Below, piece after piece: positions 24,926 through 33,558 of a stretch of 64,000 nt of DNA (position 1 is the stretch's first letter; each line of letters begins with the position of its first letter). A program made the position numbers and the translations under genes. The notes below the pieces were generated by a model that was given only the letters and a program-made list of their open reading frames with translations, was not told where the DNA came from and ran no database searches. Source of the DNA: Streptomyces fradiae ATCC 10745 = DSM 40063 (GTDB lineage: Bacteria; Actinomycetota; Actinomycetes; Streptomycetales; Streptomycetaceae); contig NZ_CP023696.1 in the NCBI RefSeq assembly GCF_008704425.1, forward strand, positions 5,682,501 to 5,746,500, given 5' to 3'.

Positions 24926-25543
24926 ATGAGCACCGAGCAGCCCGCCGCCGTCGACCTCTGGTTCGATCCCGCCTGCCCCTTCGCCTGGATCACCTCCCGC
25001 TGGATCCTGGAGGTCGAACGCCACCGCGCCCTCGACGTCCGCTTCCACGTGATGAGCCTGTACCTGCACAACGAGGGCAACGAACTGCCCGCGTGGTACC
25101 GGGACCTCGTCGACCGGTCCCTCGGCCCCGTCAGGGTCGCGGCGGCCGCCGCCGAACGGCACGGCGAGGGCGTCCTGCGCGACCTGTACACGGCCCTCGG
25201 CACCCGCATCCACCGGGACGGCGACGGCGACTTCGACGCCGTCGTCGCACAGGCGCTGGCGGAACTGGGCCTGCCCGCCGGGCTGGCGAAGGCCGCGGCG
25301 GACCCCGCGTACGACGAGGCGGTCCGCCGCAGCCACGACGCGGGCCGGGACCCCGCAGCCGGCGGCTACGTGGGGACCCCGACCCTCCACGTCGACGGCG
25401 CCGTCTGGTTCGGCCCCGTCCTCGGCGCGATCCCGCGCGGCGAGGAGGCCGTCCGCCTCTTCGACGCCTTCCGCACCCTCGCCGGACACCGGCACTTCTT
25501 CGAGCTGAAGCGCACCCGCACGGGCCGCCTCGACCACTCCTGA
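24926..25543 (+). CDS. Mycothiol-dependent nitroreductase Rv2466c family (DsbA-fold) protein
   Basis: 205 residues with a thioredoxin/DsbA fold. The N-terminal [15 protein letters not shown] is the hallmark of the Rv2466c group, and [11 protein letters not shown] holds the cis-Pro of the thioredoxin fold. Rv2466c reduces nitro-compounds and disulfides with electrons from mycothiol, the actinobacterial thiol. Here only one Cys (Cys17, CPFA) is present at the active site, so it would work as a monothiol enzyme. Probably cytosolic; no signal. It may share a transcript with the DUF1697 gene and ends at a strong hairpin. Confidence 0.88.
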
Positions 25544-25570
25544 CCCACCGGTCCCGCGGGCCGCGGTGCG

Positions 25571-25610
25571 ACCGGCGCGCCCGGCGCCCCCCGACGCCGG
25601 GCGCACCGGT
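25571..25610. terminator. Bidirectional terminator hairpin
   Basis: gcgcccggcg (25577-25586) pairs perfectly with cgccgggcgc (25595-25604), extended by accgg (25571-25575) with ccggt (25606-25610) after one mismatch. It lies between two converging genes and overlaps the DUF6745 stop codon. Confidence 0.75.
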
Positions 25611-26824
25611 CACGTCTCCCGCAGCGGCGCGTACGCGTCGGCCTCCAGGCCGAACGTCCACGCCACACCCTGCCGGGCGGTCCGGGTGTCCGGCGGCACC
25701 CGCAGCCAGTACGTGCGGCTCGTCCCGTCCGGCTCCGGCGTGGAGTTGACGACCTCCACCATCGCCACGTCCTCGTCGTCGGGCAGGGGAATCCGCCACA
25801 GCACCCCCGTGTCGTCCCGGTGCACCGGCTTGGCGCGCGACTCGCGCAGATAGCGGTCGTAGCCGTAGAACTCCAGCATCACCCGGCGCAGTTCGGCGTT
25901 CTCCTCGGTCCTGATCCGCTCCGGCGTCAGGGCCCGCAGCTCCGCCGGGAAGGCCGCCGGGACGGGCATGCCCCGCCACGCGTGGAGCGCGAAGCCGTCC
26001 CCGTACGCCAGCGCCGGGCCGTCCCCGCGGTCCAGCCGGCCCGCCTCGTCCCGGTGCAGCTCCACCGGGCGCTCGCACACGACGGCCAGCCGCTCGTACG
26101 GCCACCACCAGCCCGCCGACCGGGCCACGGCGGCGAGTCCTTCGAGCGGCGAGCCGGGCTCCGTGCCGAACGCGCACAGCCACGCCGCGTCGTGCTGGCC
26201 CAGTACCGCGTCGAGCAGCAGCAGCCGCACCTCCGCCTCGTCGGCGGGGCCCCCGGCCGCCTCCTCGACCAGACCGGCCCGGATCCGGTCGGCCAGCCGC
26301 TCCGTCGTCTCCCACAGGCGGGCGCCGGTCACAGCCCACCGCCGCCCCCATCCGCGCGCGCCGAGCAGCTCGTTCAGCCGGCCCCGCTCGGCCGCCCACG
26401 GCGCGCTGCGCACCGCCTCCCGCACCGACCTCCCCCGCGCGGCGGGCCCGCACGGGCCGTCCGGCGCCTCCCGCAGCAGCCGCAGCGCCGCGCGGGGCGA
26501 GCCCGCCCACACGATCCGCTCCGGCTCCGCCAGGCCCGCCCGGCGGTAGGCGAGCCGCACGCCCGCCTCCGCCGCCGCCCGGTCCGCCGGCCCCGTCGCC
26601 GCCGCGACGGCCCGCCACCCGTCCACGTCACCCGCCGCCGCGCCCGCCGGCACCCCGGCCGGCTCCGCCGCCCCGCCGGCCCCCACCGGACCCACCGCCC
26701 CGGCACCCCCGATCCCCCCGGTCACCCCGGTCGTCCCCGCCGTTCCCACCGTCGCCGTCATCCCCGCACCCGCCGCCATCCCCGTCGCTTCCGTCGATTC
26801 CCTCGTCACCCTCGGTCCCGTCAC
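25610..26824 (-). CDS. DUF6745-like protein
   Basis: 404 residues from a GTG with GGGGAG upstream. The first 65 residues are Gly/Ala/Val/Thr-rich low complexity; the conserved part begins near DGWRAVAAATGPADRAAAEAG. The body is Trp/Leu/Arg-rich, and the C-terminus carries VEVVNSTPEPDG and VPPDTRTARQGVAWTFGL, blocks that I associate with DUF6745, a family of unknown function. It starts 15 bp after the stop of the 108-residue gene, so the two are probably one transcript. That transcript diverges from the STM4015-STM4011 operon. No enzyme motif is visible to me. An internal start after the low-complexity tail is possible. Confidence 0.7.
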   Translation of the reverse strand: MTGPRVTRESTEATGMAAGAGMTATVGTAGTTGVTGGIGGAGAVGPVGAGGAAEPAGVPAGAAAGDVDGWRAVAAATGPADRAAAEAGVRLAYRRAGLAEPERIVWAGSPRAALRLLREAPDGPCGPAARGRSVREAVRSAPWAAERGRLNELLGARGWGRRWAVTGARLWETTERLADRIRAGLVEEAAGGPADEAEVRLLLLDAVLGQHDAAWLCAFGTEPGSPLEGLAAVARSAGWWWPYERLAVVCERPVELHRDEAGRLDRGDGPALAYGDGFALHAWRGMPVPAAFPAELRALTPERIRTEENAELRRVMLEFYGYDRYLRESRAKPVHRDDTGVLWRIPLPDDEDVAMVEVVNSTPEPDGTSRTYWLRVPPDTRTARQGVAWTFGLEADAYAPLRET

Positions 26825-26839
26825 CCGTCTCCCCGCCCC

Positions 26840-27166
26840 TCAGTCCGCCACGAGCCGCACCGAGCCCGGCACGTACTCCCGCTGCCGCACCACGCGGTAC
26901 CACCCCTTCGGCAGCGGAATCGCGGCGTGCTCCTCGTGCACCACCCGCCCCCCGTCCGGCAGGTGCAGCAGCAGTGGCCCGACCGCCCCCGGCTCGCGCA
27001 GCAGCCGCCCCGGCCCCAGCACGGCGTGGGCGTGCCCCGTCACCTCGCCGAGCGCCAGCACCAGCCGCCCGCGGGCGTCCCGCGGCTCCTGCGGAGCGTC
27101 CGCGGCGTGCGGCGGCACGGCCGCCTCGTCCAGCGGAACGATCAGCACGTCCCCCTGCCGGTACAT
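26840..27166 (-). CDS. Small conserved protein paired with the DUF6745 gene
   Basis: 108 residues; GGAAGGGGACAGGT precedes the ATG. The pattern MYRQGDVLIVPLD, GEVTGHAHAV, then EHAAIPLPKGWYRVVRQREYVP suggests a compact beta-rich fold. The Gly-His-Ala-His and Glu-His motifs could bind a metal, as in cupins, but this is inference. Function unknown. It is the first gene of the minus-strand pair and shares a 156-bp promoter region with the STM4015-family gene. Confidence 0.7.
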   Translation of the reverse strand: MYRQGDVLIVPLDEAAVPPHAADAPQEPRDARGRLVLALGEVTGHAHAVLGPGRLLREPGAVGPLLLHLPDGGRVVHEEHAAIPLPKGWYRVVRQREYVPGSVRLVAD

Positions 27167-27322
27167 ACCTGTCCCCTTCCCCCGCGCCGCCCGGTGCGCC
27201 GCGTCGTCCTCCGACCGTAGGGCGGGGGTCTGACAACGGGGCCCGGCCGGGCCCGGTGTCAGTGGCGCTTGCTACAACTGGCAGCACATCGACGGCGACG
27301 CACGAGGAACGGCGGACATCCC
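27167..27322. promoter_or_regulatory. Shared divergent promoter region of the DUF6745 pair and the STM4015-STM4011 operon
   Basis: 156 bp between divergent starts, with a relatively AT-rich core (ttgctacaactggc near 27270) that is the best place for the rightward promoter. No clear palindromic operator. The shared region is the main argument that the seven genes act together. Confidence 0.45.
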
Positions 27323-28276
27323 ATGGTGAGTCACAAGAACGAGTGGTGCGGGCTGCCCGTCTACGACTTCCCCGGCCCCGAGGACCAGGCCGGGACGAAG
27401 CTGCCCGACGCGGGCGCCGTCGCCTGGCGCGTCTCGGTCGACACCTACGACGCGGAGGAGACCTGGCCCGAGGCGTTCGCCCGCTTCACGGCGGCCGTCG
27501 ACCCCGGCGCGGTCCGCGCGATCGTCGTCGGAGCCTGGGAGGAGGCGTACGAGAACGGCCCCGAGAAGGTGATCCGGGCGCTCCTGGACGCCCGCGGCCG
27601 GCTCACCTCCCTGCGCGGTCTGTTCCTCGGCGACATGGAGTCCGAGGAGTGCGAGATCTCCTGGATCACCCAGGGCGACGTCACCCCGCTGCTCGACGGC
27701 TTCCCCGACCTGGAGGAGTTCGGCGTACGCGGCGGCACGGGCCTCGCCTTCTCCGCCGCCGCCCACCGGCGGCTGCGGTCCCTCCTCGTGGAGACCGGCG
27801 GCATGCACGCCGAGGCCGTGCGCGGCGTCGCGGCCTGCGACCTGCCCGCGCTGCGGTCCCTGGAGCTGTGGCTGGGCACCGACCAGTACGGCGGCGACTG
27901 CGCCGTCGAGGACGTGGCACCGATCCTCGACGGCTCCCGGCTGCCCGCCCTGCGCCACCTCGCCCTGGTCAACAGCGACATCGAGGACGCCATCGCGGCG
28001 GCCGTCGCCTCCGCGCCCGTCGTCGCCCGGCTGACCTCCCTCGACCTGTCGAAGGGCGTCCTCACCGACGAGGGCGCGACCGCGCTGCTCGGCGGCCAGC
28101 CGCTCACCCACCTCGACAGGCTGGACCTGCACCACAACTACCTCACCGAGCCGCTGCGGCAGCGTCTGCGCGAGACCCTGGAGAGCGCGGGCGTCGTCCT
28201 CGACCTCGACCCGGGACACGCCGACGAGGACGAGTGGGACGGCCGCGTCTGGCGGTACGTCGCCGTCGGCGAGTGA
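27323..28276 (+). CDS. STM4015 family protein (LRR-like)
   Basis: 317 residues. The body is made of repeated Leu-rich units (LTSLRGLFLGDM, LPALRSLELWLG, LPALRHLALVNSDI, LTSLDLSKGVL, LTHLDRLDLHHNYL), so it probably forms a solenoid for protein or peptide binding. The N-terminal part (GLPVYDF, VAWRVSVDTYDAEETW) and the final GRVWRYVAVGE are family-specific. It is the first gene of a five-gene operon whose order reproduces the set named after Salmonella STM4011-STM4015. No catalytic motif is visible. A role as substrate-recognition subunit is my inference. Confidence 0.9.
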   Translation: MVSHKNEWCGLPVYDFPGPEDQAGTKLPDAGAVAWRVSVDTYDAEETWPEAFARFTAAVDPGAVRAIVVGAWEEAYENGPEKVIRALLDARGRLTSLRGLFLGDMESEECEISWITQGDVTPLLDGFPDLEEFGVRGGTGLAFSAAAHRRLRSLLVETGGMHAEAVRGVAACDLPALRSLELWLGTDQYGGDCAVEDVAPILDGSRLPALRHLALVNSDIEDAIAAAVASAPVVARLTSLDLSKGVLTDEGATALLGGQPLTHLDRLDLHHNYLTEPLRQRLRETLESAGVVLDLDPGHADEDEWDGRVWRYVAVGE

Positions 28277-28286
28277 CGGACCGGCC

Positions 28287-29405
28287 GTGACGAAGGGAGC
28301 GCCGCGCCGCTGGGCGGTCGTCGCCAACCCCGCGAACCGCCGGGTGGCCCTGTTCGCCCGTGCGGTCCGCGAGGCCGGGCTGCCCGCGCCGCGCGTCGTG
28401 CCGTGGGCGGACGTGCTGCGCGACGGCGGCGCCGACTTCGCGCCCGACGAGGTCGTACGGCTCGACTCGCCCGGTGAGGACGCCGCCGTCGACCGGGCGC
28501 TGCGCGGGGTGGACGACCCGACCCGCGTCGAGGGCGGCGCCCGCTGGTATGAGCGGTTCACCGCCGCCGTGCGGTCGCTCAGGGGAGGGGTGCACCTCGA
28601 CGACCCCGGTGAGCTGGCCGTCCTCTTCGACAAACGGCGCTGCCACGGCGTCCTGGCCGGCGCGGGGGTGCCCGTGCCCGAGTCGCCCACCTCCGGCGGC
28701 GGCACGCCGGTGCGCGGCTGGGACGACGTACGGGCCCTGATGGAGGCGCGCGGCATGCCGCGCGTGTTCCTCAAGCCCGCCCACGGCTCGTCCGCCTCCG
28801 GGGTCGTCGCCGTCGAGACGGCCGGGCGCGGCAGGATCAGGGCGACCACCTCCGTGGAGACCGCCGAGGACGGCCGCCTCCACAACTCGCTGCGCGTGCG
28901 CCGCGTCACGAGCGAGCGGGAGGTCGCGGCCCTGGCCGACGCGCTCGCCCCGGACGGGCTGCACATCGAGCGGTGGTGGCCCAAGGCGTCCCTGGACGGC
29001 CGGGCGGCCGACCTGCGGGTCGTCGTGGTCGCCGGCCGGGCCACCCACGCCGTCGTCCGCACCAGCCGCACGCCCATGACCAACCTGCACCTCGGCGGGC
29101 GGCGCGGCGACCTCACCGCGGCCACCGCCGCCGCGGGCCCCCGCTGGGCGGACGCCCTGGAGACCTGCGAGCGGGCCGCGGCCCGCTTCCCCGGCACGCT
29201 CTGCGTCGGGGTCGACCTGCTCCCGGCGGTCGGCTGGCGCCGGTTCGCCGTCGCCGAGGTCAACGCCTTCGGCGATCTCCTGCCGGGCCTCACCGGCCTG
29301 CCCGGCAGCGGCGCGGAGGGCCTCGACACCTACGCGGCCCAGGTCGCCGCCGTCCAGTACCGCCTTGACCGGAACCACACGAGGAACCACCGTGCACCCG
29401 CCTGA
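28287..29405 (+). CDS. STM4014 family protein (ATP-grasp-like)
   Basis: 372 residues from a GTG 10 bp after the STM4015 stop. The layout fits an ATP-grasp enzyme: DKRRCHGVLAGAGVPVPES (start of the ATP-binding lobe, about 115-133), VFLKPAHGSSASGVV (nucleotide-binding Lys and Gly/Ser loop, about 160-175), DLRVVVVAG, and near the C-terminus CVGVDLL with VAEVNAFGD (metal-binding Glu-x-Asn). ATP-grasp enzymes form amide or ester bonds through an acyl phosphate. The natural substrate is unknown. Its end overlaps the beginning of the STM4013 gene by 14 bp. Confidence 0.88.
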   Translation: MTKGAPRRWAVVANPANRRVALFARAVREAGLPAPRVVPWADVLRDGGADFAPDEVVRLDSPGEDAAVDRALRGVDDPTRVEGGARWYERFTAAVRSLRGGVHLDDPGELAVLFDKRRCHGVLAGAGVPVPESPTSGGGTPVRGWDDVRALMEARGMPRVFLKPAHGSSASGVVAVETAGRGRIRATTSVETAEDGRLHNSLRVRRVTSEREVAALADALAPDGLHIERWWPKASLDGRAADLRVVVVAGRATHAVVRTSRTPMTNLHLGGRRGDLTAATAAAGPRWADALETCERAAARFPGTLCVGVDLLPAVGWRRFAVAEVNAFGDLLPGLTGLPGSGAEGLDTYAAQVAAVQYRLDRNHTRNHRAPA

Positions 29406-30414
29406 CCCCGCGCCCCTGCCCGACGACGCACGCGAACCCGACACGTACGGGCCCGGCACGCACGGGCCCGACACGTACGGGCCCGGCACCGCCGGGCCCG
29501 ACACGCGAGGGCCCAGCACGCCCGGCCCCGCCCCGCACGAGCCCGCCCCGCACGGGCCCGACACAGACGGGCCCGACACGAACGAGCCCGACACAGACGA
29601 GCCCGACATGAACGAGGTCGTCGGCCGGGACGACCTGCTCCTGCTCACCCTCGACACCCTGCGCCACGACGTGGCCGCCGAACTGGCCGCCGCCGGGCGC
29701 CTGCCGAACCTCGCCCGCCACCTGCCCGGCGGCGCCTGGGAGAAGCGGCACGCGCCGGGCAGCTTCACCTACGCCTCCCACCAGGCGATCTTCGCCGGCT
29801 TCCTGCCCACCCCGGCGGCGCCGGGCCCGCACCCCCGGCTGTTCGCCGCCCGGTTCGCGGGCAGCGAGACGACCGCGCGGCGCACCTACGTCTTCGACAC
29901 GCCCGACCTCGTGTCCGGCCTCGCCGCCGCCGGATACCGCACGGTGTGCGTGGGCGGCGTCGGCTTCTTCACCAACCGGGGCGCGCTCGGCGGCGTCCTG
30001 CCCGGCCTGTTCCAGGAGAGCCACTGGGAGCCGGAGTTCGGCGTCGCGTCGCCCGTGTCCTTCGAGGCGCAGGTCGAGCGGGTCGAGCGGATCGTCGCCG
30101 GACTCCCGCGGCAGCGGCGGCTGTTCCTCTTCGTCAACGTGTCCGCGCTGCACCAGCCCAACTGGTTCCACCTGCCCGGAGCCTCCCGCGAGGACGGCGA
30201 CAGCCGCGCCACGCACGCCGCCGCGCTGGAGTACGTGGACCGGCACGTCGGCCGGCTGTTCGCCGCGATGAGCTCGCGCCGCCGCTGCTTCGCCATCGTC
30301 TGCTCCGACCACGGCACCGCGTACGGCGACGACGGCTACACCGGTCACCGCCTCGGCCACGAGGCCGTGTGGACGGTGCCCTACGCCCACTTCTTCCTGG
30401 AGCCGTCCGCATGA
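29392..30414 (+). CDS. STM4013/SEN3800 family hydrolase (alkaline phosphatase superfamily)
   Basis: 340 residues from GTG 29392, chosen for the GAGGA six bases upstream; other starts are 29365 and ATG 29608. Residues about 20-72 are a Gly-Pro-Asp-Thr pentapeptide repeat, and the conserved protein begins at MNEVVGRDDLLLLTLDTLR. Superfamily features are LLTLDTLRHD (metal Asp), SFTYASHQAIF (nucleophile Thr/Ser region) and CSDHGTAYG with GHRLGHEA (metal Asp/His). It should hydrolyse or transfer a phosphate or sulfate ester, or move a phospho-group. No signal peptide. The last bases overlap the STM4012 start (ATGA). Confidence 0.88.
   Translation: MHPPDPAPLPDDAREPDTYGPGTHGPDTYGPGTAGPDTRGPSTPGPAPHEPAPHGPDTDGPDTNEPDTDEPDMNEVVGRDDLLLLTLDTLRHDVAAELAAAGRLPNLARHLPGGAWEKRHAPGSFTYASHQAIFAGFLPTPAAPGPHPRLFAARFAGSETTARRTYVFDTPDLVSGLAAAGYRTVCVGGVGFFTNRGALGGVLPGLFQESHWEPEFGVASPVSFEAQVERVERIVAGLPRQRRLFLFVNVSALHQPNWFHLPGASREDGDSRATHAAALEYVDRHVGRLFAAMSSRRRCFAIVCSDHGTAYGDDGYTGHRLGHEAVWTVPYAHFFLEPSA
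29440..29605. repeat. 15-bp-type coding repeat in the STM4013 N-terminus
   Basis: Degenerate tandem units of the form gggcccgacacgtac encode Gly-Pro-(Asp/Gly)-Thr-x pentapeptides, about ten in a row. Disordered extension, probably recently expanded. Confidence 0.85.
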
Positions 30415-31889
30415 ACCCGCCCGCAGCGGCCCGAACCGCCCCCGCCGCAGCCACCCCGGCCCCCACGGCCCCCGCGCGGCTCCCGGCCGCCCCGGCGCGC
30501 CAGCCGGCACCGGCCACCCCGGCACCCGAGCCCCCGGCCCTTCCGCCCGTGCGCCCCTACCAGGCGTACGTCTACGCCTACCCGCACAAGACCGCGTACC
30601 GGCCGCTGGAGGACCGGCCCGCGCTGCGCGAGCTGTGGCGGGGCGAGGCCAAGGACGCCCTCTCCCTCTACCTCCACATCCCCTTCTGCGAGGTCCGCTG
30701 CGGCTTCTGCAACCTCTTCACCCGCATCGGCGCCCCCGACGGGCTCACCGGCCGCTACCTCGACGCCCTCGACCGCCAGGCCGCCGCCGTCCGCGACGCC
30801 CTCGACACGTCGGACGGCGGGGCGGGCGGCGGGGCGGGCGGCCCGGTGCGCTTCGCCAACGCGGCCTTCGGCGGCGGCACCCCCACCTTCCTCACCGCCG
30901 CCGAGCTGGACCGCCTCTGCGACATCGCGGAGCGGCGCATGGGCGCCGACCTCCGGGCCGTCCCGCTCTCCGTCGAGACGTCCCCGGCCACGGCCACCGC
31001 CGACCGGCTCGCCGTCCTCGCCGCACGGGGCGCCACCCGCGTCAGCATCGGCGTGCAGAGCTTCGTCGACGAGGAGGCCAGGGCGGCCGTCCGGCCGCAG
31101 CGCCGCGCCGACGTGGAGGCCGCGCTCGGCCGCATCCGCGACTCGGGCGTCCCCGTCCTCAACATCGACCTCATCTACGGCATCGACGGCCAGACCCCCG
31201 CCAGCTGGCGCGCCTCCCTCGACGCCGCCCTCGCCTGGCGGCCCGAGGAGCTGTACCTGTACCCGCTGTACGTCCGCCCCCTCACCGGACTCGCCCGCCG
31301 CACCGCCCACACCGACCGCGAGTGGGACGAGCAGCGCCTCACCCTGTACCGGCAGGGCCGCGACCACCTCCTCGCGCACGGCTACGAACAGGTGTCGATG
31401 CGGATGTTCCGCCGCCCGGACGCAGCCCCGCAGGGCCCCGACGACCACGCCTGCCAGACCGACGGCATGATCGGCCTCGGTTGCGGGGCCCGCTCGTACA
31501 CCTCCACGCTCCACTACTCCTTCGACTACGCCGTCGACATGGGGCGGATACGGGGGATCATCGACGCCTACACGGCCACCGAGGACTTCGGCCGCGCCGT
31601 CCACGGCCGGCGCGTCGACGGCGCCGAGGCGCGCCGCCGGCACCTCCTGCAGTCGCTGCTCCAGGCGCGGGGCATGCCGCTCGCCGACTACCGGGCCCGC
31701 TTCGGCACCGACCCGTACGACGACTTCCCCGCCGAGCTGGCCGCCTTCGCCGGGCGCGGCTGGCTCCTCGACGACGGCTCCGGGGCGCTGCGCCTGTCGC
31801 CGGAGGGCCTCGCACACTCCGACGCGCTGGGCCCCGAGCTGTTCTCACCCGCCGTCCGGGCCGCGATGGCCGCGTACGAACCGAGGTAG
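30411..31889 (+). CDS. STM4012 family radical SAM protein (HemN/HemW-like)
   Basis: 492 residues; the ATG overlaps the previous stop. An Ala/Pro-rich tail fills residues 1-46. The radical SAM cluster motif is CEVRCGFC (Cys93, Cys97, Cys100), preceded by LYLHIPF, the hallmark of coproporphyrinogen-oxidase-like radical SAM enzymes. FGGGTPTFL (SAM-binding), TRVSIGVQSF and NIDLIYGIDGQT follow, as in HemN/HemW proteins. The C-terminal HemN_C-like helical domain is present. It would use a 4Fe-4S cluster and S-adenosylmethionine to generate a radical; HemW-like members are often methyltransferases or heme chaperones rather than oxidases. Fourth gene of the operon. Confidence 0.92.
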   Translation: MNPPAAARTAPAAATPAPTAPARLPAAPARQPAPATPAPEPPALPPVRPYQAYVYAYPHKTAYRPLEDRPALRELWRGEAKDALSLYLHIPFCEVRCGFCNLFTRIGAPDGLTGRYLDALDRQAAAVRDALDTSDGGAGGGAGGPVRFANAAFGGGTPTFLTAAELDRLCDIAERRMGADLRAVPLSVETSPATATADRLAVLAARGATRVSIGVQSFVDEEARAAVRPQRRADVEAALGRIRDSGVPVLNIDLIYGIDGQTPASWRASLDAALAWRPEELYLYPLYVRPLTGLARRTAHTDREWDEQRLTLYRQGRDHLLAHGYEQVSMRMFRRPDAAPQGPDDHACQTDGMIGLGCGARSYTSTLHYSFDYAVDMGRIRGIIDAYTATEDFGRAVHGRRVDGAEARRRHLLQSLLQARGMPLADYRARFGTDPYDDFPAELAAFAGRGWLLDDGSGALRLSPEGLAHSDALGPELFSPAVRAAMAAYEPR

Positions 31890-31897
31890 CCGACACC

Positions 31898-32824
31898 GTG
31901 GACCTGACGATCCTGTACCGGGGGCCGCTCGCCTCCTGCGACTACGACTGCCCCTACTGCCCCTTCGCCAAGCGCCGCGACAGCACCGAGCGGCTGCGCG
32001 CCGACCGGGCGGCGCTGGAGCGGTTCACCCGCTGGGCGGGGGAGCGGACGGGGGACCGGCTCTCCGTGCTGTTCACGCCGTGGGGCGAGGGGCTGGTCCG
32101 CTCCTGGTACCGGCGGGCCCTCGTCGAGCTGTCCCACCGGCCGCACGTGCGGCGCGTCGCCATCCAGACCAACCTGAGCTGCCGCACGGACTGGCTCGCC
32201 GACGCCGACCCGGCCACCGTCGCCCTGTGGTGCACCTACCACCCCGGCCAGACCCCCTACGAGCGGTTCCTGGCCAAGGCCCGCGACCTCGCCGACCGGG
32301 GCGTCCGCTTCAGCGTCGGCGTCGTCGGGCTGCCCGCGCACCTGGCGCACGCCCGGCGGCTGCGCGCCGCCCTGCCCGCCCACGTCTACCTGTGGGTCAA
32401 CGCGGCGGAGGGCCACACGTACACGGACGAGGAGGCCGCCCTCTGGACGGCCCTCGACCCGCTGTTCCCCTACAGCCGCCACCCGCACCGCTCGGCCGGG
32501 CTGCCCTGCCGCACGGGCGAGTCGGTCGTCTCCGTCGACGGCGACGGCACGGTCCGCCGCTGCCACTTCGTCCGCGCCGAGCTGGGCAACCTCTACGACG
32601 GCTCGTACCGCGCGCGGCTCGCCCCCCGCCCCTGCCCGCTCGCCGTCTGCGACTGCCACATCGGCTACGTGCACCTGGAGACACTGCCGCTCTACGACGT
32701 CTTCGCGGGCGGCGTCCTCGAACGCGTCCCGGCCGGGCACCCACCGCAGCCCCTGGCCCCGGTCCCGCTCAGCCCGCCGGAGCGCCGCCCGCCCACCCCG
32801 CCGGAGGCGGACCGGGCGCCCTAG
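31898..32824 (+). CDS. STM4011 family radical SAM protein
   Basis: 308 residues from a GTG eight bases after the STM4012 stop. The cluster motif CDYDCPYC gives Cys14, Cys18 and Cys21. A second group of cysteines lies near the C-terminus: Cys204, Cys222 (VRRCHF), Cys246, Cys251 and Cys253 (PCPLAVCDC). This looks like a SPASM/twitch-type auxiliary iron-sulfur region, a feature of radical SAM enzymes that modify peptides. Last gene of the five-gene operon. Its stop codon shares the tetranucleotide CTAG with the stop of the chelatase gene on the other strand. Confidence 0.9.
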   Translation: MDLTILYRGPLASCDYDCPYCPFAKRRDSTERLRADRAALERFTRWAGERTGDRLSVLFTPWGEGLVRSWYRRALVELSHRPHVRRVAIQTNLSCRTDWLADADPATVALWCTYHPGQTPYERFLAKARDLADRGVRFSVGVVGLPAHLAHARRLRAALPAHVYLWVNAAEGHTYTDEEAALWTALDPLFPYSRHPHRSAGLPCRTGESVVSVDGDGTVRRCHFVRAELGNLYDGSYRARLAPRPCPLAVCDCHIGYVHLETLPLYDVFAGGVLERVPAGHPPQPLAPVPLSPPERRPPTPPEADRAP

Positions 32825-33558
32825 ACGGCGGCGGCCAGCGGGCGGGGTGCGCGGGCCTCGTCGTAGCGGTGGAGCAGCAGCCGGGCCAGCTCGGGGGCCG
32901 GGCCGAGGACGCCGGCCAGCACGTCGGCGCCGGCCGCGCCCGCCGCGATGCGGTCGGGCAGCCGGCCCGGGGCGATCACGTACGGGGCGACGGCCACCCG
33001 GCGGACGCCCTCGGCGCGCAGCGCCCGCACCGCGTCCTCGGTGCGGGGGAGGGATGCGGAGGCGAACGCGGGCCGCACGGCGCACCAACCGGTACGCCGC
33101 AGCTCCCGCGCCGTTTCTGCGAACACCGCGTTCGCCTCCGGGTCGGAGGAGCCCGCGCCGGCCAGGACGATCCCGGTCGCGGGCCGGTCGGCGGGGGTCA
33201 GCCCCGCCTCGTACAGCCGCCGCTCCACCGCGCGCAGCAGCAGCGGCGACGGGCCGAGCACGTCCGCCCGGCGGACCCGCAGCGCCGGCGGCGCCTGCCG
33301 CAGCGCGGCGGGGAGGTCGGCCTTGGCGTGGAACGCCCGGTTGAGCAGCAGGGGCAGGGCCACCACGTCCCGTACGCCGTCCGCCGCGAGGGCCGCCAGG
33401 GCGGCGGGCACGGACGGCACGTCGAAGTCCAGGAACGCCGTCTCGACCCGGACGCCGGGCCGCAGCGCGCCCGCCGCCCGCACCAGGGCGTGGACGGTCG
33501 CGGCGTGGCGCGGGTCGCGGCTGCCGTGGGCGACGACGAGGAGGGCGGGGCCGGCCAT
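32821..33558 (-). CDS. Sirohydrochlorin chelatase (CbiX/SirB-like)
   Basis: 245 residues. Two tandem CbiX-type half domains: the first opens with LLVVAHGSRDPRHAATV (metal-ligand His) and has PLLLNRAFHAKADLP; the second opens with GIVLAGAGSSDPEANA and ends with APYVIAPGRLPDRI. It inserts iron (or cobalt) into sirohydrochlorin, supplying the siroheme used by the sulfite reductase encoded upstream in the same minus-strand cluster. It begins five bases after the permease stop, so it is co-transcribed with the sulfonate/sulfate ABC genes. Its stop overlaps the STM4011 stop. Confidence 0.92.
   Translation of the reverse strand: MAGPALLVVAHGSRDPRHAATVHALVRAAGALRPGVRVETAFLDFDVPSVPAALAALAADGVRDVVALPLLLNRAFHAKADLPAALRQAPPALRVRRADVLGPSPLLLRAVERRLYEAGLTPADRPATGIVLAGAGSSDPEANAVFAETARELRRTGWCAVRPAFASASLPRTEDAVRALRAEGVRRVAVAPYVIAPGRLPDRIAAGAAGADVLAGVLGPAPELARLLLHRYDEARAPRPLAAAV

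Follow-up and report, generated by a model that had tools for sequence, protein, structure and literature searches.

A conserved seven-gene locus of Streptomyces fradiae with two radical SAM enzymes, and a candidate attachment site at the C-terminal glutamate of its leucine-rich-repeat protein

What do two radical SAM enzymes, an ATP-grasp ligase and an alkaline-phosphatase-superfamily hydrolase act upon when they are encoded next to a leucine-rich-repeat (LRR) protein? The question is raised by a seven-gene locus in a stretch of 64,000 nucleotides of the Streptomyces fradiae ATCC 10745 = DSM 40063 genome (contig NZ_CP023696.1, positions 5,682,501 to 5,746,500; hereafter the window, in whose numbering coordinates are given). 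Five of the genes belong to families named after Salmonella loci STM4011 to STM4015, and are transcribed divergently from genes for a 108-residue protein and a DUF6745 protein. A first-pass annotation had proposed a dedicated modification pathway in which the LRR-like protein presents a substrate. Our analysis narrows this proposal, the conserved C-terminal Glu tail of the LRR protein, STM4015, being the likely attachment site. As a whole, the scheme in which STM4014 loads this Glu, the two radical SAM enzymes and a phosphodiesterase-like enzyme elaborate the attached group, and DNA damage induces the system in actinomycetes is one that we consider plausible, at somewhat less than an even chance. 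Of the new findings, the most useful are that the terminal Glu of STM4015 is invariant, that STM4014 shows kinship to Glu-using ligases and that the promoters are of the damage type.

Gene content and conservation of the locus

The seven genes of the locus are listed here, the five core genes first.

27323..28276, plus strand: STM4015 family LRR protein, 317 residues (NF038076, 381 bits, cut-off 275)
28287..29405, plus strand: STM4014 family ATP-grasp ligase (NF038074, 453.9 bits, cut-off 175)
29392..30414, start possibly 29608, plus strand: STM4013 family alkaline-phosphatase-superfamily hydrolase (NF038075, 420.2 bits, cut-off 250)
30411..31889, plus strand: STM4012 family HemN-like radical SAM enzyme (NF006067, 639.8 bits, cut-off 380; PF04055, HemN_C)
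31898..32824, plus strand: STM4011 family radical SAM enzyme (NF038073, 418.8 bits, cut-off 200)
26840..27166, minus strand: 108-residue protein with HxH and HxEH motifs that are invariant in the alignment; first gene of the divergent pair
25610..26824, minus strand: DUF6745 protein (PF20530, 390.4 bits, cut-off 27, E 1.7e-117); start uncertain, low-complexity N-terminus

Inspection of the window open reading frames (ORFs) confirmed all seven genes in position, strand and contact, in agreement with the first-pass layout, including the divergent pair and the promoter region of 156 bp between the start codons of the 108-residue gene and STM4015. The family assignments were borne out as well, with all five core proteins exceeding the curated NCBIfam cut-offs by wide margins and the DUF6745 protein exceeding that of Pfam. 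As to the two overlaps described earlier, the ATGA junction of STM4013 and STM4012 was recovered, whereas the 14-bp overlap of STM4014 with STM4013 hinges on a doubtful GTG start at 29392. The first 72 residues of the STM4013 ORF are of low complexity and the family model begins at residue 73, so the real start may be the ATG at 29608. The N-termini of STM4012 and the DUF6745 protein are likewise uncertain. The genome comprises one contig of 6.7 Mb, and the closest loci found by scanning with STM4014 are those of other Streptomyces.

The seven-gene locus is real and conserved, and its function is unassigned as far as the literature was searched. A full-text search by locus and family names, with many subscription journals outside its coverage, returned no function in print for STM4011 to STM4015 or DUF6745, as the first-pass annotation had held. 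Papers given here by PMC number are cited for individual passages; two of these passages list a sigma54-bound site inside STM4013 in Salmonella (PMC3844500) and STM4015 as a hypothetical protein in a positive-selection table (PMC2784778), and neither passage gives a function.

Scanning of genome contigs with STM4014 identified 244 relatives, the best 80 of which, all from actinomycetes, were retained. The five core genes occur in window order in 73 of the 80 loci. All seven genes do so in 52; the DUF6745 pair lies on the 3' side of the ordered core in eight, is absent in 12, and is reduced to a DUF6745 fragment in one more. Incomplete loci include two that stop at the contig end (L009, L037), one that ends 1.3 kb after STM4014 (L053) and one holding only STM4015 and STM4014 despite 10 kb read downstream (L004). 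STM4011 directly follows STM4014 in L065, and L077 lacks STM4013 and has STM4014 and STM4012 within a single open frame. The same core order was found outside the actinomycetes in Salmonella, Paenibacillus, Deinococcus (three records) and Methylobacterium plasmids, and the DUF6745 pair adjoins the core also in Deinococcus and Methylobacterium. Since the order is kept across so many actinomycete loci and in other phyla, the gene set is more than a chance assembly, and the order supposed to be common to enterobacteria and actinomycetes is indeed found in Salmonella and in the 73 actinomycete loci.

Co-occurrence was examined in two samples of genomes. The first, of 101 Streptomyces genomes (E at most 1e-20), had STM4014 in 43, STM4015 in 46, STM4011 in 44 and STM4013 in 47, and 41 of the 43 STM4014-bearing genomes also carried the other three. 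One exception is a partial STM4014 match in a 1300-contig assembly (G224), and the other a decaying cluster (G262, L120) with broken STM4015, STM4014, STM4012 and STM4011 and no detected STM4013. The second, wider sample, of 392 genomes (E at most 1e-40), had STM4014 in 188 and STM4015 in 194, with all 188 contained in the 194 when the lists were compared by eye. The expected co-occurrence stands for the four families tested in 41 of 43 genomes, and fails for a locus without companions (L068, below), for paralogues of STM4013 and STM4015 found apart from the cluster and for STM4012 relatives on Rhizobium and Cupriavidus plasmids (below). STM4014 exceeded the cut-off in 5 of 198 genomes of a phylum-wide sample, so its distribution is patchy. 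Another genome, G212 (L119), has an STM4011 lacking its N-terminus and a DUF6745 fragment with no other core gene detected, possibly a relic.

None of the seven ORFs that flank the locus in the window, some of which are perhaps not genes, occurs in more than 3 of the 80 loci, the recognisable ones (Rv2466c-like, CbiX and NMT1-like) being present in 2, 3 and 3; the flanking genes were therefore rejected as members and the unit taken to be these seven genes. The Bacteroides locus was considered as a minimal three-gene version and rejected: fragments of STM4013 and STM4012 remain between its STM4014 and STM4011, which marks it as the product of an internal deletion. A megablast search of E. coli returned no close DNA match to the Salmonella operon, no known RNA family reached its gathering score in 25000-33500, and anti-phage system models gave one weak partial match, to STM4012 only.

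An invariant glutamate at the C-terminus of STM4015

The feature on which the proposed pathway turns is the end of the STM4015 gene.

28253..28273, plus strand: codons of the STM4015 C-terminal tail RYVAVGE, with the proposed attachment site at the last residue, Glu317 (Glu in 107 of 107 copies)

STM4015 consists of an alignable LRR body, a variable acidic spacer (residues -32 to -8 are on average 35% acidic and 6% basic) and a short conserved tail, mostly RYVAVxE. Its AlphaFold2 model has a mean predicted local distance difference test (pLDDT) score of 92.7, with an average of 67 over the last seven residues. The nearest solved structure is PDB 2RA8 (Foldseek E 2.6e-17, profile E 4.3e-76), a homologue from Bacteroides fragilis (Q64V53) that is listed as uncharacterized and that differs in its full-length match to a B. 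finegoldii homologue with an N-terminal WGR domain. As a member of the family, 2RA8 also has the terminal Glu: its match closes with ...YPMITE, the Glu being residue 354 in a chain of 362, and the last eight residues are presumably a tag.

Every one of the 107 STM4015 copies read in 89 loci fetched around STM4014 or STM4012 ends in Glu. This set includes two copies located elsewhere on the fetched stretches (L018, L034), and its 200-bit limit left out one short fragment (L072 8872-9306). Sequence entropy, 1.6-3.0 bits at residues -14 to -8, is 0 at the last residue. Other tail positions are conserved to a lesser extent, with Arg in 103 copies, Tyr or Phe in 104, Ala or Ser in 102 and Val in 96. 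Distant tails read MNAMYTE in Salmonella, RYPSLTE in Paenibacillus, RYVALGE or RFVALGE in Deinococcus and RSIAVSE in Methylobacterium, so that only Glu is strictly kept. Eight further rows likewise all end in Glu, comprising Bacteroides (YYPMITE), Calothrix (RYCSVAE), five Embleya (one a partial ORF) and a second Salmonella. The Glu codon might have been conserved as the ribosome-binding site of the next gene, a reading that we rejected: Glu is present in all 16 tandem copies with another STM4015 gene after them, GAG (79 copies) and GAA (28) are both used, and most copies outside the cluster also retain the residue.

The distribution of the tail was then compared with that of STM4014. Five of the 392 genomes contain STM4015 without STM4014 (G222, G263, G287, G492, G547), and none of their copies ends in Glu, although Glu-less copies fall into a few groups and these are not five independent losses; a sixth genome with STM4015 past the limit is G224, whose partial STM4014 misses it. 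Among the copies read, no STM4014-less Streptomyces genome had a Glu tail. We also read 28 further copies from STM4014-bearing genomes, chosen as apparently out of cluster and drawn from part of the multi-copy genomes, and 22 of them end in Glu. Two of the 28 turned out to lie beside STM4014 or STM4013-4011 (L135, L149) and one is identical to the second L034 copy (L150); without these three the count is 19 of 25. Six rows were left uncounted: L146, L147, L155 and L156 belong to or adjoin clusters, are broken in some cases and have Glu wherever the end could be read; L148 is truncated at a contig end; and L120 is broken and lacks a Glu end. Glu-less endings resemble ISVGPLTY in L114, L126 and perhaps L113 (genomes without STM4014) and in L123, L129, L132, L134 and L151 (with STM4014), or read VADGRDF in L127 (without) and L154 (with) and RYVSIAV in L122 (without). 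Of these copies, L114, L123, L126, L129, L132, L134 and L151 make up a subgroup of Streptomyces STM4015 proteins with a distinct conserved ending of its own, VGPLTY or similar.

LRR proteins usually bind partners, and C-terminal motifs often act as docking sites. The tail could accordingly serve to recruit STM4015 to an enzyme, with the LRR body holding the real substrate (a tRNA, another protein or a metabolite), and residues of that body such as ExSWI and GG are invariant too. We regard this alternative as unlikely. It leaves unexplained both the conservation of a free C-terminal Glu and the relationship of STM4014 to ligases that act on such a residue.

STM4014 and its ligase relatives

Profile searches placed STM4014 closest to LysX among proteins of known structure (1uc8/1uc9, 3.6e-7; 3vpd, 5.3e-7), followed by biotin carboxylase (3.2e-4) and then RimK and cyanophycin synthase (0.0014). 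The LysX match encompasses two short stretches that include DLR/DIR and iTN..GG. By profile, then, STM4014 appears LysX/RimK-like. LysX acts on the carrier LysW, to whose C-terminal Glu it couples an amino group through the gamma-carboxyl (PMC10433800, PMC9303977), and the E54A substitution in a haloarchaeal carrier of this kind leads to arginine auxotrophy (PMC10433800). The locus resembles the LysW/LysX, ArgW/ArgX and Vzb22 systems in that its LysX-like ligase, an ATP-grasp enzyme, is encoded next to a protein with an acidic stretch followed by Glu at its end. It differs in its carrier, a 317-residue LRR fold in place of a small zinc-binding protein, and in the partners of the ligase, which are radical SAM enzymes and a phosphodiesterase-like hydrolase with no recognised release peptidase. 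We also asked whether the DUF6745 protein is related to STM4014 and found no kinship.

RimK adds Glu to the C-terminus of RpsF (PMC10092738), and is thus another ATP-grasp enzyme working on a protein C-terminus; its target is different, the STM401x locus has further core genes, and STM4014 lies below the RimK cut-off. A RimK-like STM4014 might simply add amino acids that tune the activity of STM4015, with the radical SAM enzymes acting elsewhere. The RimK-family matches, below cut-off as they are, and the lack of a recognised release enzyme in the locus fit such C-terminal tagging, which we nevertheless consider highly improbable, as it does not account for the 73 of 80 loci that keep the ligase gene in a fixed order with STM4013 and both radical SAM genes.

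The tailoring enzymes

The best PDB relatives of STM4013 are nucleotide pyrophosphatases (7n1s/2gsn), with its SFTYASH motif aligned over SLTFPNH; we take the Thr of this motif to be the nucleophile. STM4012 is a HemN-like radical SAM enzyme that matches PF04055 and HemN_C. STM4011 has eight invariant cysteines in 18 alignment rows, three N-terminal and five C-terminal (C203, C221, C245, C250, C252). Its nearest PDB relative is SkfB (6efn, E 5.8e-4), whose cluster aligns with the five C-terminal cysteines, and by sequence this part of STM4011 is like the C-terminal cysteine cluster of SPASM/twitch enzymes, at a score below the SPASM gathering threshold (PF13186, 13.1 bits against 21.5). In both Salmonella records STM4011 overlaps at its end with a gene for a Cof-type HAD hydrolase, and in Bacteroides STM4011 is fused to a HAD domain (L157:10126-11691); these neighbours and fusions may point to a phosphorylated intermediate.

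SkfB is a peptide-maturation enzyme, and the tail could itself be the core of a system resembling those of ribosomally synthesized and post-translationally modified peptides (RiPPs), in which STM4011 cross-links the Tyr/Phe and neighbouring residues of RYVAVxE or alters them in another way, STM4014 closes an amide and the LRR body is an oversized leader. The conservation of tail residues besides Glu fits this idea, as does the frequency of SPASM radical SAM enzymes in ATP-grasp RiPP loci (PMC8939145), a pairing that makes graspetides and other ATP-grasp RiPPs a point of comparison. Only Glu is invariant, however, and the Salmonella and Methylobacterium tails show that an aromatic residue at -6 is not required there. 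Moreover, none of the seven proteins matches a peptidase or exporter family in NCBIfam or Pfam. We consider a RiPP-like process quite unlikely. The locus further differs from those of graspetides in having no recognised short precursor gene, short ORFs not having been searched for. The text of PMC8939145 does not contain the words 'LysX', 'sulfatase' or 'alkaline phosphatase', and the paper is not among the literature matches for the STM401x family names. A separate RiPP precursor gene is likewise unlikely. In one Salmonella and three Deinococcus records the annotated core genes either overlap or are separated by no more than 24 bp, so there is no room for another precursor between them (again, with no search made for short ORFs).

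Two minor observations concern relatives of these enzymes. A paralogue of STM4013 in the same genome (~5,436,817-5,440,284; L112:4818-8285) lies after MoaA-like radical SAM and thymidylate-kinase-family genes and before a NUDIX gene, and this four-gene set recurs in two other Streptomyces genomes. Plasmids of Rhizobium and Cupriavidus carry an STM4012-like radical SAM gene with only a class I methyltransferase gene (L106, L107).

Proposed pathway

The conserved gene set, the conserved tail with its Glu, the ligase kinship and the promoter motifs are observed, and from them we infer each chemical step, the product and the induction. STM4015 would be a folded LRR protein whose reactive site sits on a short, probably flexible C-terminal tail. 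STM4014 would activate a carboxylate of the invariant Glu and join it to an amine, either an amino acid or another amino compound. Modification of the attached group, or of adjacent residues in the tail, would next fall to STM4011 (SPASM-like) and STM4012 (HemN-like), and removal or transfer of a phosphate-containing group to STM4013 (phosphodiesterase-like). Because no peptidase or exporter is recognisable among the seven proteins, the product would either stay on the protein as a prosthetic group or be released by a host enzyme. The pathway would resemble that of the pearlins (TglA, TmoA, AmmA) in placing a small molecule on the C-terminus of a ribosomal carrier, in one case with a radical SAM enzyme (PMC9303977). 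It differs in that STM4015 is large and folded and that the seven proteins match no PEARL (LanB-like), protease or transporter family in NCBIfam or Pfam.

A number of observations weigh against this scheme. STM4014 falls far below the cut-offs of both the LysX family (TIGR02144, 18.5 bits against 275.6) and the RimK family (TIGR00768, 26.6 against 143.4), for which reason membership in either is not claimed; each of the two LysX stretches is weak alone (about 0.05-0.1), and biotin carboxylase ranks ahead of RimK. The tail of STM4015 is not the EDWGE motif of LysW. Six of the 28 apparently out-of-cluster copies are Glu-less despite STM4014 in the genome, and the Calothrix copy keeps Glu with no STM4014 within the 9.2 kb read. 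A high-scoring STM4014 of Thermocatellispora tengchongensis (L068) stands alone in 21 kb, unaccompanied by STM4015 or any other gene of the seven. Finally, a short precursor could fit in the window, within the 156 bp of the promoter region or, should 29608 be the true start of STM4013, in the ~200 bp then free ahead of that gene.

Taken further, the scheme would make STM4015 the first of a new carrier class. A LysX-like ligase would attach an amine to the C-terminal Glu of the LRR horseshoe, and two radical SAM enzymes and a phosphodiesterase-like enzyme would build a compound or prosthetic group there; the system would be induced by DNA damage in actinomycetes and would have spread as a five-gene unit through at least four phyla, with a broken copy in a fifth, Bacteroidota. 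We put this forward tentatively, as doubtful in its full extent. If the carrier reading is true, amide-linked carrier biosynthesis would extend beyond small zinc proteins and short peptides to include a repeat protein that is large and folded, and radical SAM chemistry would be tied to the damage response of antibiotic-producing bacteria. For five families that bear only Salmonella locus tags as names, this would provide one shared site of action, a single residue, and in actinomycetes an expression condition, DNA damage.

Divergent promoters and DNA damage

The region between the two operons contains two candidate promoter motifs.

27256..27278, plus strand: RecA-NDp-like promoter motif for the five-gene operon, GTGTCAGTG-N8-TACAAC (without the final T of the consensus)
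27214..27236, minus strand: RecA-NDp-type promoter motif for the 108-residue/DUF6745 pair, TTGTCAGAC-N8-TACGGT

Both operons thus have upstream of them a motif of the type printed as the RecA-NDp/PafBC consensus, tTGTCRgtg-8 nt-TannnT (PMC5656591). RecA-NDp promoters are reported for S. coelicolor recA and SCO6735, the latter induced by ultraviolet light (PMC5087735). We examined 52 promoter regions, from the window and 51 loci in which the 108-residue gene and STM4015 diverge within 700 bp, and counted as matches those with at least 10 of 12 consensus positions. A minus-strand match was present in all 52 regions, which come from related loci and hence are not 52 independent cases, and a plus-strand match in 45, the same number having both; first-order resampled sequences reached 10 of 12 in 3 of 1040. 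TGTCAG and CTGACA are both present in 43 of the 52. Where the pair has been relocated, all 9 loci retain a site with a score of 11 or more at the 108-residue gene, and the best scores upstream of STM4015 are 7 to 10.

Genome-wide, the consensus has 11 exact sites and 60 sites with at most one mismatch, versus 1 for the reversed pattern; the window sites have two mismatches each and so lie outside this list. The ORFs behind the exact sites, picked mechanically or by eye, encode RecA, uracil-DNA glycosylase, the alpha and gamma/tau subunits of DNA polymerase III, ribosomal protein S6 and YjbR, along with an MFS transporter, a SWIM protein, a sigma factor and two products without a Pfam match (L165, L168). 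The genome has 11 WYL-domain matches, two of which are adjacent on one strand (1,048,805-1,050,011), the arrangement expected of pafB and pafC. In actinomycetes, DNA damage probably induces the two divergent operons through these RecA-NDp/PafBC-type promoters. Arguing the other way, the plus-strand site lacks the last T of the consensus. Six records of Salmonella, Paenibacillus, Deinococcus and Methylobacterium had no score of at least 10 ahead of the cluster, and a study of S. venezuelae reported that a first search did not turn up the mycobacterial PafBC motif (PMC9380542). A LexA/SOS box, sought as the strict palindrome GAACN4GTTC only, was found in 0 of the 52 divergent regions.

The table of mitomycin C responses and LexA sites from the same S. 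venezuelae study lists a 'Radical SAM protein', vnz_31145, with a value of 19.97 (PMC9380542). An S. niveiscabiei locus (L038:5582-7560), read by eye, appears to have a transposase/resolvase-like insertion between the 108-residue gene and STM4015.

The 108-residue protein and the DUF6745 pair

The mobility of the DUF6745 pair, like the damage-type promoters, goes beyond what the first-pass annotation expected. The 108-residue protein reached no Pfam cut-off, and in PHROG it matched a phage family without a known function. Sequence searches of the PDB returned no relative below E 1 and fold searches none below E 0.001, and assignment as a cupin was rejected on this lack of a fold match. Its AlphaFold2 model is mostly beta, with a mean pLDDT of 82.2 and the last 11 residues below 50. 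The pair is the movable part of the locus, and occurs without the core, in the 12 kb read of each, on plasmids of Deinococcus ficus (L176:5989-7325) and Skermanella rosea (L177:5998-7746). Microcystis phage Ma-LMM01 encodes a homologue of the 108-residue protein, a DUF6745 protein and uracil-DNA glycosylase side by side (L175:2968-5257), and this neighbourhood, together with the damage-type promoters, fits a DNA-related role for the pair.

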